Assembly (NCBI RefSeq): GCF_039596395.1
Contig: NZ_JBCNJT010000002.1
Coordinates: forward strand, 1,302,001-1,366,000
Direction: 5' to 3'
Source of the DNA: Fluviicola sp.
Lineage (GTDB): Bacteria > Bacteroidota > Bacteroidia > Flavobacteriales_D > Crocinitomicaceae
Length of the DNA stretch: 64,000 nt
Each line of letters opens with the position of its first letter. Position 1 is the stretch's first letter. A model generated the notes under the pieces. That model saw nothing but the letters and a program-made list of their open reading frames with translations. It was not told the DNA's origin and did not search any database. Made by a program: the position numbers and the translations under genes. Below, one piece after another: positions 56,046-63,991 of the stretch.

Positions 56046-56990
56046 ATGCGGTACTACTATTCAAGATACGTGAAAATATTTCTAACAATTCTAATATCTA
56101 TTTTTTCTGAACAAATGCTTTTGGCTCAGTCAAAATCACTAGTGAATATGAGTAATGGTGATATTTATATCTGTAGTGATAATTGTTGTTTGGAATTTTA
56201 TGCAAAACTTCCTATGTTTAACGATATAGCTTATGTCAACGATAAAATATATGCCGTTGATGCAAACCTAAACGTTATAGATTTTAACTCAAAACAATTA
56301 ATAAGTTCCTTTCCTATTTATAACATAAATGGAGATCAAATATTTAGCGATGGCTTGGAAATAGTAAATGATAGTTTATTATTTCTGGATGACGAGACAG
56401 ATCTTTATTGTTTTAATTTGAATACAAATAGTATTCAATTTGTAGGCAATACGGGATATTATTGTTCTGGAGATCTGCTATTCCTTAACAATAAATTATT
56501 CATGACAACTGATTCGAATCAGCTGATAGAAATAGAATTGAGTTCTTTTTATGCCATTGTCAATGTAACAGTTGTAGATAACCTTTCTATAGGTTCCGTG
56601 TTTGGACTTTCAAAGATTAATGACGCTTCCGAATTACTCTTATTTAGTGGTTTATCATTGTACAAAGCAAATGCTATTTCTAAAGAATGCAGCAAGGTTT
56701 GCAATTTGACATCGTCTGTTAATGGGGCTAGTTATTATGGAGAGAAAGGAATATGTACAGATTATCCAAATATAATTACGCCAAATAATGATGGCGTTAA
56801 TGACTTATGGGAATTCTCTTTAGCCTCAAAAGCTCAATTGGAAATTATAAATCGTTGGGGAAATTTAATTTATAAAGTCGAAGGTAATATGCTTTCGTGG
56901 GATGGAGCGGATTGTCCAGATGGCATTTACTTCTACCGAATAACTACTAAGGAAAACATCGAATCCGGATATATCCAACTGATTCGATAA
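56046..56990 (+). CDS. Secreted beta-propeller-like protein with type B T9SS (CHU_C) tail
   Basis: 314 residues. Signal peptide about 8-28 (YVKIFLTILISIFSEQMLLAQ). Residues 30-235 form repeated four-strand-like units (GDIYICSDNCCLEFYAKL, NDKIYAVDANLNVIDF, NDSLLFLDDETDLYCFNL, NNKLFMTTDSNQLIEIEL), as in a small beta-propeller. The last about 80 residues are the gliding-motility-associated C-terminal (type B) sorting domain: PNIITPNNDGVNDLWEF, NRWGNLIYKVEG, DGIYFYRI. Codons and base composition are far more AT-rich than in the flanking helicase gene. Exported to the surface; function unknown. Confidence 0.85.
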   Translation: MRYYYSRYVKIFLTILISIFSEQMLLAQSKSLVNMSNGDIYICSDNCCLEFYAKLPMFNDIAYVNDKIYAVDANLNVIDFNSKQLISSFPIYNINGDQIFSDGLEIVNDSLLFLDDETDLYCFNLNTNSIQFVGNTGYYCSGDLLFLNNKLFMTTDSNQLIEIELSSFYAIVNVTVVDNLSIGSVFGLSKINDASELLLFSGLSLYKANAISKECSKVCNLTSSVNGASYYGEKGICTDYPNIITPNNDGVNDLWEFSLASKAQLEIINRWGNLIYKVEGNMLSWDGADCPDGIYFYRITTKENIESGYIQLIR

Positions 56991-57341: not shown

Positions 57342-58334
57342 TTGATAAAACCTGCTTTTTATATCACTATTTTACTTTTTGTTCTTCTGAATCACTCGCA
57401 GGCTCAGCCAAATCTGATTTATAATGGCGATTTTGAGGAGTATTCTAGTTGTCCACAATATGAAAGTTCCCCATTTCAAAATCCAAAGGAAATAGAAAAG
57501 TGTATTGGATGGAAAGCTCCTACTTATGGTACAAGCGATTATTTCAATACATGCGCTACGAATCCAACAATATCTGTACCAGCCAATGCCTTAGGAATTC
57601 AAAATCCATATTCTGGGAATGGATATCTTGGAGGGTCTTTTACAAATTATGGCGGTGGTGCTGGAAACGATGGTTACTCCGGGATTATGTGGTGGGAATA
57701 CATACAAGGACAACTGATTTCTCAATTGGAGGAAAACAAAATATATAAACTTTCAATGGAAGTGTCACTGGCAGAATATTCTGATTTAATGATAAATGAA
57801 ATCGGAGCTTATTTCTCCGATTTTCCTATTTCCAGTCCAAACACTGCTGCTTTAACAGTTAATCCACAGTGTGTTTTTTACAATTCCAATCATTTTGGGG
57901 ACACTTTAAACTGGCAGTATGTTGAGACAATTTTCATCGCGAGTGGACACGAACGATATGTGACTATTGGTAATTTTCGGAACGATACATCAACAGACAC
58001 TTTACGTCGTTATGACATTTCCCCTACATATGTTAATCCATATGTTACCTATTTCTATATCGATAATGTTGTTCTAACAAGTGTTAACATAGACATACCT
58101 AATATATTTACACCTAATAATGACGGAATCAATGATTTATGGAGTCTTCCATTTTCAGATGCCTCAAAAAAAGTTTCAATACTAAACCGTTGGGGAAATT
58201 TAATTTATGAAAATGATTTGGAAAATTTCGCATGGGATGGGAAAACTCAAAAAGGTGAAGAATGTTTGGATGGAATATACTTTTACAGAATTAATAATAC
58301 GAACATAGCAGGTTTTATCCAATTGGTGAGGTAA
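57342..58334 (+). CDS. Secreted jelly-roll protein with type B T9SS (CHU_C) tail
   Basis: 330 residues. The start is TTG (57342): a stop codon lies in frame at 57327-57329, no ATG precedes the signal peptide (IKPAFYITILLFVLLNHSQAQ), and the next Met is deep in the mature protein. Residues 22-245 match the Bacteroidota galactose-binding-like module that starts NLIYNGDFEEYSSCPQ and includes CIGWKAPTYGTSDYFNTC and YIDNVVLT. Residues 250-330 are the type B sorting domain (IFTPNNDGINDLWSL, NRWGNLIYENDL, DGIYFYRI). It shares its tail and its AT-rich composition with the gene at 56046. 10 bp before the fibre gene, so the two are probably co-transcribed. Confidence 0.85.
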   Translation: MIKPAFYITILLFVLLNHSQAQPNLIYNGDFEEYSSCPQYESSPFQNPKEIEKCIGWKAPTYGTSDYFNTCATNPTISVPANALGIQNPYSGNGYLGGSFTNYGGGAGNDGYSGIMWWEYIQGQLISQLEENKIYKLSMEVSLAEYSDLMINEIGAYFSDFPISSPNTAALTVNPQCVFYNSNHFGDTLNWQYVETIFIASGHERYVTIGNFRNDTSTDTLRRYDISPTYVNPYVTYFYIDNVVLTSVNIDIPNIFTPNNDGINDLWSLPFSDASKKVSILNRWGNLIYENDLENFAWDGKTQKGEECLDGIYFYRINNTNIAGFIQLVR

Positions 58335-58344
58335 CACCAATTCA

Positions 58345-61275
58345 ATGAAAAAGAGAACACTATTTATTTTTGGAGCTGTTTTTTTATTTGGCACCCAAAA
58401 TATTAACGCACAAACTAGTAATAGTCCAGGAGGAATAGGACCTTCTGGACAAAATAATAATCAATTTTGGTCTAGGGCTGGAAACAATGCTGCTTTTGGC
58501 ACGAATAATATCTTCGGCACCCGTTGGGCATCCGATATATGGGTGATGACTAATGATATAAACATTGCCCGTTTTACCCACAATAACGCCCTAACCTCCC
58601 TCGTCGGCAATTCCGGTGACGGCTTGCGCATCCTGGATCCGCTCAGCGGCCCTGGAAATCTGGATTTGTTTACTTCCAGTTCGCCGGGCGGAAATGAAAC
58701 CCACATTGTTTGGGGTGGAAGCGGGCAGGTTTCCGGGCAGAATAACCGCTTTGAATTTTTGGCCAAAGCAGGTCAGGGATTTTGGTTTGACCTGATCAGC
58801 CCGACTGTTCAATACTACAAGTTCGCGACCAATGCGACTGTGCATGCTTTTGTTGGCAGCAACCGGTTCTGGCGCATCGGAGATCAGGCGGAACTGGCAA
58901 ATACTTCGGCAAATCGCAGACTCGAAGTAGTACAGGATGACTGGCAATTCCGGCTTTCCCGCACAAACGGCGTGTATACCGATTTCCAAACCAATACCAA
59001 CCGGAACCTGCAAATCCTGCCTCAAGGCGGGAGGGTAGGAATCAATGCAAATGCTGACCCTACTGCTACCGTTGATGTGTTCGGTGATGCGAGAATTCGT
59101 AATGTACAGGCTGCAACTCCAAATTCCATTTTGGTTGGTGTAAATGCTACCGGTGCTTCGGATGTAAACGTACGCAGACTGGATTTTAATGGAAATCCAA
59201 CTACTTTTCTGGGAGGTGATGGAGCATTTCACAGTATAACGATCCCACCTGTTCCGGCTCCCTCTGCTAATAATGGGGTTTCCTGGAACTCTGCCCTTTC
59301 GGCAGCCTATCAATTAGGAGATCTTTATATGCTACCGACCACAAATACACCACTGACAGCTAATCGTCAGGTGAGACTGGGAGGGAGAAGCTTAATTTTT
59401 TCCGGTACAGGAAGAGTTGGAATCGGGTTAAGTGCGCCTATAATGCCTACCGAAGTTCTCGACGTAAATGGAAATGCGCGTTTCCGCAACGTTCCGGTTC
59501 AGGGAGGCCAATCGATTATTCTCGGATTTCAAAACGGAACCAATGTGGATGATGTGGAATTATCCAGATTGGAATTTCCAAACAACAATACCGTTGCATT
59601 GCTGGGAGACGGAACCTGGGGAACAGTTACCGGCCCGGCGGGTCCGGCAGGACCAACCGGAGCAACAGGGCCTGCAGGTCCAACCGGTCCAACAGGAGCT
59701 ACCGGTGCAACAGGCCCCGCGGGACCGGCCGGAGGAATTATTGCTGCTCAAAACGGGTTGAATTTATTGAATCCTTCTACCGTTGAGTTGGGTGGGCCAT
59801 TGTATCACAACACCACGGTTACCTGCAATACGTTTGACATGAATTTCAGCAATGTCTACGGGAACTTCATCGTGGGAGACTGGAATAACGGAAGCTCACC
59901 GTTGACGGGCGCGCACCAGAATATTATCCTCGGAATGGCAAATACCATCAATTATAATCCTGCAGTTTCCGGTCAGGGTTGGGGACACGGCATTTGGGGA
60001 AATTCCAATACGGTATATAACCAGGGAACGAATGTATTCGGAGATTACAACGAGATCGGGAACAACGCAAGCGCCACCGCCGGACAAGGAGACTTCGTAC
60101 TTGGAGCGCACAACAAATCAAACACTGCAACCGGTGCACAAGACGGCTATACCATTGGTGCTTATAATGAGAATCAGGGTTACACCAACTATGTTTTCGG
60201 GAAGGAAAATAAAGTTACCGGCCAGGAATCCTATGCTTATGGAAGCGATAACATTTCCAAAGGATTCAGAGCCCATTCCTTCGGGAATTACGTATATGGC
60301 CCGGAATACGTGGTTTCAATCGGGAACAGTTATACCGGAAGTGCTGCCAACATCCAAAGTTATGTGAATGGCGGCGGTGATCTTTACACGGCTCATACTT
60401 CACTGGCAACCGCCAACCAGGACATCCCGGCGATCAATATTGATAATTCCAATAAAGTAGCTATCAAAAAATACTATGCAGCCGCCTCATTGGATGTTTG
60501 GGGAACCATTCTTCAAAACGGAACCAGTGTAACTTCGGATTCGACCCTGAAACACAATATCCAGGATTTAACGCTTAATGCAGACAGCTTACTGAACCTC
60601 TTGCGTCCAAGAACTTTTGAATGGAACACCGTTCAGGATACCTTTATGCTGGGAACACAATACGGGTTCATTGCCCAGGAATTTGAAACGGTACTTCCTG
60701 ATTTGGTTAAAAGCGGGGAAGACGGAATCAAACACATCAGTTCCGGTGGGTTAATGCCGATCCTGGTATCGGGTTACCAAAATCAAAAAGCACAGATCAA
60801 TTCATTGGAAAACAACCAGGACAGCTTGCAGGAATTGGTAAATTCCCAGCAGACGACTATTAACGACCTGAATAACCGCCTCACACAATTGGAAAACTGC
60901 CTTTCCGGAATTCTTCCTCTACTATGCCAGTTAAATCAAAGCGCGATCCAGGCAAACACGCCGTCTGCACAGGAAGAAGTGCGCAAAAACCTGAACGTAA
61001 CCCTGAGCAACCGCCATGCGATCGTGCTCGATCAAAACGTACCTAACCCGTTTGCAGAGCAAACAACCATCCATTTCTCCGTTCCGGAAACCGTAAAGAA
61101 AGCGCAGATCCATTTCTACGATGGAAACGGCCGCTTTATGAATTCCGTTGAGATCACTGAAAGAGGTCTTGGAAGTATCACTGTATTTGGCTCGGATCTA
61201 AGCACAGGTGTTTACACTTACACGTTGGTTGCAGACGGACAAGTTGTTGCGACTAAGAAAATGATGAAGCAATAA
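58345..61275 (+). CDS. Fibre-like protein: collagen repeats, YadA-like head, S74 chaperone, type A T9SS tail
   Basis: 976 residues. Signal peptide about 1-22 (TLFIFGAVFLFGTQNINAQ). Residues 25-425 are beta-rich with repeated NGNARFRNV/VGINANADPT patterns. Residues 430-462 are eleven perfect Gly-X-Y triplets (GPA, GPT, GAT). Residues about 540-680 resemble YadA-head/beta-roll repeats (TIGAYNENQGYTNYVFGKENKV, ESYAYGSDNISKGFRAHSFG). The Peptidase_S74 intramolecular chaperone follows from Ser731 (SDSTLKHNIQDL, Ser731-Lys736) to about 845 (YGFIAQEFETVLPDLV, then a heptad helix), and a type A sorting domain ends it (LDQNVPNPFAEQTTIHFSVP). A homotrimeric surface fibre is inferred. Composition shifts from AT-rich to GC-rich around codon 55-70. 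Confidence 0.88.
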   Translation: MKKRTLFIFGAVFLFGTQNINAQTSNSPGGIGPSGQNNNQFWSRAGNNAAFGTNNIFGTRWASDIWVMTNDINIARFTHNNALTSLVGNSGDGLRILDPLSGPGNLDLFTSSSPGGNETHIVWGGSGQVSGQNNRFEFLAKAGQGFWFDLISPTVQYYKFATNATVHAFVGSNRFWRIGDQAELANTSANRRLEVVQDDWQFRLSRTNGVYTDFQTNTNRNLQILPQGGRVGINANADPTATVDVFGDARIRNVQAATPNSILVGVNATGASDVNVRRLDFNGNPTTFLGGDGAFHSITIPPVPAPSANNGVSWNSALSAAYQLGDLYMLPTTNTPLTANRQVRLGGRSLIFSGTGRVGIGLSAPIMPTEVLDVNGNARFRNVPVQGGQSIILGFQNGTNVDDVELSRLEFPNNNTVALLGDGTWGTVTGPAGPAGPTGATGPAGPTGPTGATGATGPAGPAGGIIAAQNGLNLLNPSTVELGGPLYHNTTVTCNTFDMNFSNVYGNFIVGDWNNGSSPLTGAHQNIILGMANTINYNPAVSGQGWGHGIWGNSNTVYNQGTNVFGDYNEIGNNASATAGQGDFVLGAHNKSNTATGAQDGYTIGAYNENQGYTNYVFGKENKVTGQESYAYGSDNISKGFRAHSFGNYVYGPEYVVSIGNSYTGSAANIQSYVNGGGDLYTAHTSLATANQDIPAINIDNSNKVAIKKYYAAASLDVWGTILQNGTSVTSDSTLKHNIQDLTLNADSLLNLLRPRTFEWNTVQDTFMLGTQYGFIAQEFETVLPDLVKSGEDGIKHISSGGLMPILVSGYQNQKAQINSLENNQDSLQELVNSQQTTINDLNNRLTQLENCLSGILPLLCQLNQSAIQANTPSAQEEVRKNLNVTLSNRHAIVLDQNVPNPFAEQTTIHFSVPETVKKAQIHFYDGNGRFMNSVEITERGLGSITVFGSDLSTGVYTYTLVADGQVVATKKMMKQ

Positions 61276-61294
61276 AAATTTCAAAATAAATACG

Positions 61295-61330
61295 CATCCC
61301 TTGCAGCAAGATTGCAGGGGATGTTTTTTT
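61295..61330 (+). terminator. Rho-independent terminator after the fibre gene
   Basis: Eleven-base stem CATCCCTTGCA (61295-61305) / TGCAGGGGATG (61313-61323) with one G-U pair, followed by a T-run on the plus strand, 20 bp past the fibre gene stop. Confidence 0.88.
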
Positions 61331-61450
61331 GTCCGAAAACACGATATGGTGATGTTCCTTACTGGATAAATCAACAGGAACAGCAGTTAAATTATTAGTG
61401 GAGCATTTGTGTTATCTTTTTCGTACATTGGACAACTTAAAAAACTGACA

Positions 61451-63991
61451 ATGAAAAAGCTACTCTCCTCTTTTTTGTTCCTGGCAATCCTGCATGTTTG
61501 TCTCGGACAAAGTGAAATGACCTCTATTCAGCGTTATTTGCAGGAACATGCAACTAGCTGGAACCTGAAAGCTGCAGACTTCTCGAACCTGGAAATTGTT
61601 TCAAGCGCTTCCTCGAAGGCTTCGAATACAAAGCACATCAAAGTACGTCAAACGAAAAACGGCTTACCGGTTATTGACGGATTCGGAATCATTACTGTTC
61701 GCAACAATGAAGTCATTCATGTGACGACAAACTTCGTTTCCGTTTCGGAACCGGTGAATCATCCGGTTTTAAGTGCTGCCGATGCAGTGAATGCCTCCCT
61801 GAAACAGTTGAATTTGGCAGCTGCAGATTTGAAACAGCTTCAAACTACCGGAAGCGGTTTTCTTTTCTCCAAAGCCGGAGTTTCGAAAGAAGATATTCCT
61901 GTGAAATTGTTCCTTGGAAGCCACAACGGACAATTGCTGTACATCTGGGATCTGAGTATTTATCCGGTGAATTCGGAGCATTGGTGGTCGATGAGGTTGA
62001 ATGCCGAAACCGGCGAGGTGATCTTTCAAAATGACTGGATCGCTCATTGCTCAGTGGAGCATTGTTCCGGCGAAAATCATCGTGCTGCTCAATCCATGAT
62101 GGTTCCGCCTCCTCCTCCGGGAGCAGATCAGTACCAGGTTTACGCATTACCGAATATCAGTCCGGCACACGGAGATCGCGTGCTCGTTACAAATCCTTCG
62201 GACGGAGTTTATTCTCCTTTCGGATGGCACGATACGGATGGAATTGCTGGCGACGAATACACCATTACACGCGGAAATAACGTGTATGCTTCCGATGATA
62301 TTGACGATGATGATGTTCCGGGTTACTCACCGGATGGAGGAAGTGCATTGGATTTTGTATTTCCGTATGATTCTGCCGTAGGTGTTCAGGGAAACCTGGA
62401 TGCTGTTATTACGAACCTGTTCTACATGAACAATATGATGCACGACATCTGGGCACATTATGGTTTTGACGAAGAAAGCGGGAATTTCCAGGAAATGAAT
62501 TACAGCGGTTCCGGTTTGGGGCAGGACCAGGTTATGGCCGATGCGCAGGATGGAAGCGGAACAAACAATGCGAATTTCGGAACACCGCCCGATGGAGGAA
62601 ATCCGCGCATGCAGATGTACTTGTGGACGGATAGTAACGTTCCGGATTTATTGACAATCAATTCACCGGCAATTGTTGCAGGACCTTATTCCTGTTCTAC
62701 AGCCGGGTTTGGCCCTCCCGTACCGACGACTCCGATTACGGAAGACATCGTTTTGGTTTTGGATGACGGAACTGATCAGACAGATGCCTGCGGAGTCATT
62801 ACAAATGGTGCGGCCCTGGCCGGAAAAATTGCTTTGGTGCGACGAGGAAATTGTCCGTTTGCCGATAAAGTATTGGCTTGCCAAAACTTCGGTGCTCTGG
62901 CTGTCATTATTATGAATAATGTAGGAACCAGCACTCAGGCAATGGGTGGTGGTACCGGTGCAGAAACAATACCGGCTATCATGGTTTCAAAACCGAACGG
63001 AGATGCATTCGTAAACCAGATCAATTCTGGGAGCACATTAAACGGAACGATCGTAAATCCGGGAGATCTGACCGCAACGGATTCTGATTTCGACAACATG
63101 ATCATTGCACACGAATACGGTCACGGAATTTCTACGCGTTTGGTTGGTGGAGCAGATAATGCGGACTGTTTGTGGAATGCCGAGCAAATGGGTGAGGGCT
63201 GGTCTGACTGGTTCGGACTGATGATTACACAAACCGCTTCCGATGCAGCTGCTGACGGAAGAGGAGTAGGAACTTACGTGATCAATGAACCGAATAACGG
63301 AACCGGAATTCGCCCGGCGCCTTATTCCACGGACTTTGCGATCAATGATTATACTTACGGAAATACGAATAGCAATACTTTGACAGAGCCACACGGAATC
63401 GGTTTCGTTTGGGCAACGATCCTGTGGGATCTGAACTGGGCTTTGATCGATGAATACGGGTTTGACCCGAATATAAAAACAGGTACGGGAGGAAACAATA
63501 AAGCTATGAGTTTAGTGATCGAAGGATTGAAAATGACCAACTGCGGACCTGGATTTGTAGACGGACGCGATGGAATCCTTGCGGCAGACCAGGTGCTTTA
63601 TGGCGGAGCAAACAAATGTTTGATCTGGAAAGTATTTGCCAGAAGAGGAGTAGGTTATTCGGCAGACCAGGGAGATCCGGGTGATCGTAACGACCAGGTG
63701 GAGGCATTCAATTTACCTTTCGAGTGTACACTGGGATTGGCCGAAAACAAGGCAGGAGTTCACGTGCAGGTTTATCCGAACCCAAGTAACGGAAAACTGA
63801 CGGTTAAGAACAATAACTCAGGTATTCAGCACATCGAGTTGGTTGATTTGAGCGGGAAACTGGTTTATTCAAGATCACTTGAAAACAAAACAGAAGCAGA
63901 TCTGGATATCAGCAGCCTGAAACAGGGATTGTACCTGATGAAAGTCTTAACACCGAACGGAACTGAAACCATTCGCGTGGAGAAATTCTAA
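61451..63991 (+). CDS. Secreted M36 (fungalysin-like) metalloprotease with PA domain and T9SS tail
   Basis: 846 residues from the ATG at 61451 (MKKLLSSFLFLAILHVCLGQ signal peptide); a frame extension to 61409 would bury the signal peptide and is rejected. FTP-type propeptide about 25-190 (KHIKVRQTKNGLPVIDGFGIITVRNNEVI in two parts). The M36 catalytic domain has HEYGH with His554, Glu555 and His558, and the third zinc ligand Glu582 in GEGWSDW. A PA (protease-associated) domain is inserted before it (about 405-530; GKIALVRRGNCPFADK, AVIIMNN). A type A sorting domain ends the protein (VYPNPSNGKLTVKNN). The bacterial M36 insertion of PA and T9SS tail is common in Bacteroidota. Extracellular protein or elastin-like substrate degradation expected. 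Confidence 0.94.
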   Translation: MKKLLSSFLFLAILHVCLGQSEMTSIQRYLQEHATSWNLKAADFSNLEIVSSASSKASNTKHIKVRQTKNGLPVIDGFGIITVRNNEVIHVTTNFVSVSEPVNHPVLSAADAVNASLKQLNLAAADLKQLQTTGSGFLFSKAGVSKEDIPVKLFLGSHNGQLLYIWDLSIYPVNSEHWWSMRLNAETGEVIFQNDWIAHCSVEHCSGENHRAAQSMMVPPPPPGADQYQVYALPNISPAHGDRVLVTNPSDGVYSPFGWHDTDGIAGDEYTITRGNNVYASDDIDDDDVPGYSPDGGSALDFVFPYDSAVGVQGNLDAVITNLFYMNNMMHDIWAHYGFDEESGNFQEMNYSGSGLGQDQVMADAQDGSGTNNANFGTPPDGGNPRMQMYLWTDSNVPDLLTINSPAIVAGPYSCSTAGFGPPVPTTPITEDIVLVLDDGTDQTDACGVITNGAALAGKIALVRRGNCPFADKVLACQNFGALAVIIMNNVGTSTQAMGGGTGAETIPAIMVSKPNGDAFVNQINSGSTLNGTIVNPGDLTATDSDFDNMIIAHEYGHGISTRLVGGADNADCLWNAEQMGEGWSDWFGLMITQTASDAAADGRGVGTYVINEPNNGTGIRPAPYSTDFAINDYTYGNTNSNTLTEPHGIGFVWATILWDLNWALIDEYGFDPNIKTGTGGNNKAMSLVIEGLKMTNCGPGFVDGRDGILAADQVLYGGANKCLIWKVFARRGVGYSADQGDPGDRNDQVEAFNLPFECTLGLAENKAGVHVQVYPNPSNGKLTVKNNNSGIQHIELVDLSGKLVYSRSLENKTEADLDISSLKQGLYLMKVLTPNGTETIRVEKF

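Follow-up and report, generated by a model that had tools for sequence, protein, structure and literature searches.

Domains of the S74 family make trimers, and their self-cleavage is known from phage fibres, from MyRF and from the fibres of a predatory bacterium; export of enzymes and adhesins by the T9SS is known as well. In the open-licence papers that we searched, we found no account of the two combined in one protein, of the breadth of this combination, or of the cysteine lock and the operon partner proposed below. Here we describe a protein from Fluviicola sp., encoded in a window of 64,000 nucleotides (contig NZ_JBCNJT010000002.1), in which an S74 domain with a predicted Ser-Lys dyad is followed by a type A T9SS tail (fibre protein, Table 1).

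The best structural match of this S74 domain is the MyRF ICA. Both proteins place an N-terminal functional trimer, predicted in the case of the fibre protein, before an S74 domain with a Ser-Lys dyad, a C-terminal coiled coil and then a targeting part, which in MyRF leads to a membrane, and cutting frees the N-terminal trimer of MyRF. Unlike the fibre protein, MyRF is a eukaryotic transcription factor with a membrane helix in place of the T9SS domain, and we know of no Cys lock in it. The MAT fibre Bd3182 of Bdellovibrio, a bacterial, secreted, trimeric mosaic with a self-cutting SDxxxK S74 domain, resembles what we predict for the fibre protein; members of its family carry a conserved beta-rich domain of ~130 aa after the signal peptide. 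However, Bd3182 ends at S74 and no T9SS tail has been described for it, so that cutting and sorting do not conflict. Phage fibres (K1F endosialidase, T5 pb1, long tail fibre 6f45) share the chaperone domain, and T5 cuts a Thr-Ser bond, the same bond that we predict for the fibre protein, but these fibres assemble in the cytoplasm without secretion and carry S74 at the extreme C-terminus. Type A adhesins of Flavobacterium (RemA/RemZ) share the sorting domain and presumably the PorV/SprA route; to our knowledge, none has a self-cleaving chaperone between passenger and tail. Finally, trimeric autotransporters (YadA, type Vc) have similar head repeats, by analogy with which the fibre would be trimeric. 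In contrast to these, the fibre protein has no C-terminal YadA beta-barrel anchor (no anchor family was matched in the Pfam scan) and carries the T9SS domain in that place.

Architecture of the fibre protein

The preliminary description of this locus reported Ser731 and Lys736 in an S74 domain (SDSTLK) followed by a type A T9SS tail, and profile matches above the curated cut-offs bear this out. Peptidase_S74 (PF13884) matches with E 2.1e-11 (44.4 bits, cut-off 22), and the first position of the profile falls on Ser731. The tail is matched by TIGR04183 over residues 900-976 of 976 (29.5 bits, cut-off 23) and by PF18962 (27.4 bits, cut-off 27). The chain ends in K-K-M-M-K-Q, in which the Lys columns are invariant or nearly so across alignment A1; a near-invariant Lys close to the C-terminus is important in type A substrates of the T9SS. 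The same genome has at least 150 matches to the type A T9SS domain. By inspection, the N-terminus is a predicted Sec/SPI signal peptide (MKKRTLFIFGAVFLFGTQNINA, followed by QT) with no lipobox, and a crude test assigned a Sec-type signal peptide to 51 of 63 tailed S74 proteins. "Collagen/YadA-like fibre" is a fair description of the intervening chain: the Pfam Collagen match is below the cut-off and the triplets are plain by eye, and the YadA-like head repeats are recognized by inspection, the Pfam scan giving no YadA family match. Cleavage between Thr730 and Ser731 would, as had been reasoned, detach the fibre (residues ~23-730) from the T9SS tail, and no other anchor is visible in the chain.

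Table 1. Features of the fibre gene, its upstream partner and the downstream hairpin (window coordinates)
Feature	Residues	Position	Strand	Basis
Operon partner, 330 aa: signal peptide, CBM4/16/22-like jelly roll, type B T9SS tail		57342..58334	+	Profile matches, model
S74-T9SS fibre protein, 976 aa		58345..61275	+	ORF translation, Pfam and TIGRFAM profile matches
Sec/SPI-type signal peptide	1-22	58345..58410	+	Inspection
Collagen-like G-x-y triplets	430-463	59632..59733	+	Pfam Collagen, E 4e-4
YadA-head-like repeats	~545-685	59977..60399	+	Inspection
Peptidase_S74 / intramolecular chaperone domain	731-789	60535..60711	+	Pfam, profile and structure comparison
Predicted nucleophile Ser731 (predicted cut Thr730-Ser731)	731	60535..60537	+	Profile alignment
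Lys736, second residue of predicted dyad	736	60550..60552	+	At +5 from Ser731; profile alignment
Long helix / coiled coil	800-868	60742..60948	+	AF2 model helix 160-228
R-h-x-x-h-E motif RLTQLE	845-850	60877..60894	+	Alignment; enriched vs shuffles
Cys852, first of conserved C-x8-C pair	852	60898..60900	+	Survey of tailed proteins
Cys861, second of conserved C-x8-C pair	861	60925..60927	+	Survey of tailed proteins
Type A T9SS C-terminal domain	895-976	61027..61272	+	TIGR04183, PF18962, beta-sandwich in model
Intrinsic-terminator-like hairpin, 13 bp stem and T run		61294..61324	+	3' of fibre gene

Sequence profile and structure model agree on the S74 fold. Among S74 proteins of solved structure, a profile built from 54 tailed relatives matches 6f45, a long tail fibre of a phage (E 6.7e-15), MyRF 7dc3 (E 1e-9), the tail fibre 8jov (E 1.5e-5) and, weakly, GA-1 3gud. 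Its Ser and Lys align with MyRF positions 587 and 592, and Ser731 is equivalent to S587 of MyRF and S1264 of T5 pb1. The AF2 model, like all models used here a monomer prediction, is confident for S74 (pLDDT mostly >90), for the 69-residue helix (with lower confidence towards its end) and for the T9SS beta-sandwich (pLDDT mostly 83-95). In VIA, the top match of the S74-tail model is 7dc3 (Z 7.9; 105 residues superpose with an rmsd of 2.2 Å, residues 90-194 of the model lying on residues 586-705 of the 7dc3 chain), and the endoNF endosialidase chaperone 3gw6 is also listed (Z 6.2); a Z just below 8 is modest taken alone. Foldseek with the same model returned nothing below 1e-3, the best match being again 7dc3 (1.3e-3). 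Within the helix, R, L, L and E of the RLTQLE motif are invariant across alignment A1, and the motif is enriched relative to shuffled sequences. R-h-x-x-h-E is a known trimer-specifying coiled-coil pattern, and from this motif and the S74 family we infer that the fibre protein forms a trimer.

Distribution of the S74-T9SS order

Of 99 related genomes, 60 contain S74 domains, as do 88 of 296 genomes across the phylum. From the fetched loci we collected 237 S74 proteins with a closed C-terminus, and removal of fragments and of one odd case (L047) left 234 clean proteins. Our home-built T9SS-tail HMM missed divergent tails, and every tail longer than 110 aa was then judged by eye; all except that of L047 end in a type A-like domain. 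With this procedure, we could establish that a type A-like T9SS tail follows S74 in 72 of the 234 proteins, which are related and not phylogenetically independent, and that the other 162 end at most 110 residues past S74. The search for this order in other Bacteroidota, which the preliminary description had recommended, thus shows it to be common. It also recurs in most of a second set of 80 named loci, picked by tail or linker patterns that lie outside S74 (QNVPNPFA, LE[NS]CLS..LP). Cultured bacteria with relatives of the fibre protein include Fluviicola chungangensis, Taishania pollutisoli and Brumimicrobium aurantiacum. Recurrence in 72 proteins and in most of these loci argues that the layout did not arise by chance.

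Two further observations concern the sample. Among untailed S74 proteins, a crude test found a Sec-type signal peptide in 112 of 136 and a lipobox in only three. In addition, a paralogue about 35 kb beyond the fibre gene in the same genome (L034:1785-5648) carries two tandem S74 domains, both with SDxxxK, before the same Cys pair and T9SS tail. Nine tailed proteins in the survey have tandem S74 domains; their second copies resemble one another at 73% and the first copies at 34%, so that the arrangement looks old.

Conservation of the catalytic dyad

Many Bacteroidota proteins join S74 and T9SS domains with the dyad intact. In the survey, Ser and Lys are each kept in 79 of 80 tailed domains; the corresponding counts for untailed domains are 162 (Ser) and 163 (Lys) of 163. 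The sole tailed loss (L162) has E/R instead of Ser/Lys (EDARLR). The locus of this protein (G343) also holds a tailed S74 gene with Ser and Lys kept, which makes L162 a natural inactive copy suited to comparison. A bias of the dyad count towards Ser, which the Pfam model contains, was not supported: an S74 profile stripped of its first nine columns, and with them of the dyad, found SDxxxK in 86 of 86 readable tailed domains of the pattern-picked loci, the three misses being ORF fragments. The column of Y615, an aromatic residue that matters for cutting in MyRF, is aromatic in 67 of 67 non-redundant tailed domains.

Invariance alone is no proof of activity, since Asp732, at a position that is non-catalytic in S74, is as invariant as the dyad. 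This observation would suit the suggestion in the preliminary description that the dyad is inactive and that S74 is only a trimer-maker, in which case the uncut fibre would remain attached to its tail; in MyRF, moreover, neighbouring regions can hold cleavage back. However, Ser is not required to produce an S74 domain: Ser-to-Ala proteins of T5 pb1 and MyRF were crystallized, and Ser-to-Ala Bd3182 ran as a single unprocessed species. A domain that no longer cuts should therefore drift, yet just one of the 80 tailed domains (L162) has done so, and tailed proteins keep the dyad no less strictly than untailed ones. We consider an inactive dyad improbable. Conservation of the dyad together with the dispensability of Ser for folding suggests instead that cutting is probably retained and that the dyad is kept for it. 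MyRF cuts only as a trimer, and Bd3182, a bacterial S74 protein, cuts itself at the Ser of SDxxxK. By analogy with these relatives, it is very likely that the fibre protein trimerizes and cuts, and we predict its cleavage on these grounds.

A cysteine pair behind the coiled coil

Tailed and untailed proteins differ in a Cys pair that follows the post-S74 coiled coil and precedes the tail, and that had gone unnoticed in the first reading of the locus. It is found in 46 of 72 tailed proteins, and is missing from the other 26, as compared with 1 of 162 untailed ones (Fisher 7e-29, a statistic that ignores kinship). Within the same bacterial order the counts are 45 of 57 tailed and 1 of 56 untailed; outside it, 1 of 15 tailed proteins has the pair. 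Exactly two Cys occur in 45 linkers. The spacing is C-x8-C in the fibre protein and in 26 proteins overall, all of which have R-h-x-x-h-E/D/Q starting seven residues before the first Cys, and a vicinal CC form is found in 20 proteins of other families. The pair as a general trait of type A tails was rejected, because none of 30 further type A proteins from the same genome has it.

Vicinal Cys pairs beside trimeric helices make interchain bonds in collagens and matrilins. Two Cys per chain is what a trimer would require for three such bonds, and from its position in the sequence the pair is probably an interchain lock. A C-x8-C spacing could also close a hairpin within one chain, and an intrachain disulfide, or a metal or redox site, would be compatible with any reading of the fibre's maturation. 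We regard this as possible but doubtful, given that the vicinal form lies at a similar distance from the C-terminus (100-115 residues) and that the pair follows a trimer-specifying coiled coil.

The upstream partner gene

The gene that ends 10 nt before the fibre gene was likewise overlooked in the first reading. Pfam has no family for the N-terminal part of its product, and the predicted jelly roll is closest to CBM4/16/22 modules (Z about 11-13). Of 48 tailed S74 genes, 22 have a member of this family directly upstream (-4 to +17 nt), as compared with 0 of 88 untailed ones (p 2e-12, again ignoring kinship); about half of the tailed genes lack such a neighbour. The family was found in 34 named loci, and in 28 of these it lies 3-40 nt upstream. 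The second S74-T9SS gene of the Fluviicola genome has a partner-family gene 14 nt upstream, and the two S74-linked partners are the two best full-length matches of the family in this genome. The family is not confined to S74 operons, other copies being located elsewhere and some fused to other domains. The jelly-roll domain itself ('NLVPNGSFE..GTSDYFN.C'), which has no Pfam family, is present in about eight copies in the genome (including 57342-58334; L339-L344), combined with type B tails, with OmpA-like ends or in other ways.

Proposed export and maturation

How may such a protein be sorted and cut? We see an even chance that it is a self-maturing trimeric surface fibre that is exported by the T9SS and cut after trimerizing outside. 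Each chain would cross the inner membrane via Sec, and its C-terminal type A domain would lead it across the outer membrane (PorV/SprA route). Outside, three chains would join through the post-S74 coiled coil, the two Cys per chain would probably tie the trimer, and the S74 trimer would template folding of the fibre towards the N-terminus. Once the trimer is complete, Ser731 and Lys736 would cut the Thr730-Ser731 bond. This step would separate the mature fibre from a stub of S74, coiled coil and Cys lock; the stub would remain with the T9SS tail, or with the end that processing leaves of it. The operon's jelly-roll protein, also a T9SS substrate, would be the likeliest holder or presenter of the fibre, which might otherwise be shed.

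Cutting after export, one of two alternatives in the preliminary description, is somewhat favoured here. It fits the trimer-only cutting of MyRF and the published binding of T9SS C-terminal domains, which bind PorV inside SprA, the substrate then departing together with PorV; those of type A are either released or linked to LPS. If chains cross singly, they would become able to cut only once together outside, so that sorting precedes cutting without extra control. A precedent is MyRF of C. elegans, in which cutting is delayed until the protein reaches its membrane. If trimerization were periplasmic, cutting there would strand the fibre. Self-cleavage before export, with the fibre riding out non-covalently bound to its stub or staying in the periplasm, is nevertheless conceivable, since S74 proteins of phages cut immediately upon trimer folding, the T5 pb1 chaperone also grips its fibre by non-covalent contacts, and 162 untailed S74 proteins, mostly with signal peptides, apparently manage without a T9SS tail. 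Yet the T5 chaperone must leave after cutting, solved translocon complexes hold one C-terminal domain, and loss of the tail before export would be wasteful, whereas 72 proteins retain both the tail and the dyad. We therefore judge a periplasmic cut fairly unlikely.

The partner gene matters for the question of whether the fibre, once cut, is let go or retained. Speculatively, and with rather little confidence, the two genes may encode a hand-over, in which the T9SS exports a CBM-like partner along with a trimeric S74 fibre whose chains are covalently locked, and self-cleavage outside detaches the fibre from the export stub and hands it to the partner. If so, a folding chaperone would double as the switch that releases a secreted protein. 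More generally, bacteria with this layout may first export their fibres and free them by cutting afterwards. These proteins make it testable whether the T9SS can deliver obligate trimers and whether these fold inside or outside, and the Cys pair and partner gene provide experimental handles on this question.

Genomic surroundings

PHROG tail-fibre families match residues 560-831 of the fibre protein, as would be expected of a phage tail fibre or prophage remnant with a chance T9SS-like tail. This origin is contradicted by the signal peptide, the T9SS tail, the T9SS-exported neighbours and an operon with a T9SS partner that is conserved across families; we consider it extremely improbable. Terminator-like sites occur in this region at near the number expected by chance, so the hairpin after the fibre gene is supportive only, and a promoter scan of the region gave chance level. 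Another type B T9SS protein is encoded upstream of the gene pair (56046-56990); it shows no clear conservation as a neighbour in other loci. Past the terminator, positions 61409-63991 encode an ordinary T9SS-dependent M36 metallopeptidase (NF038113, 1030 bits).
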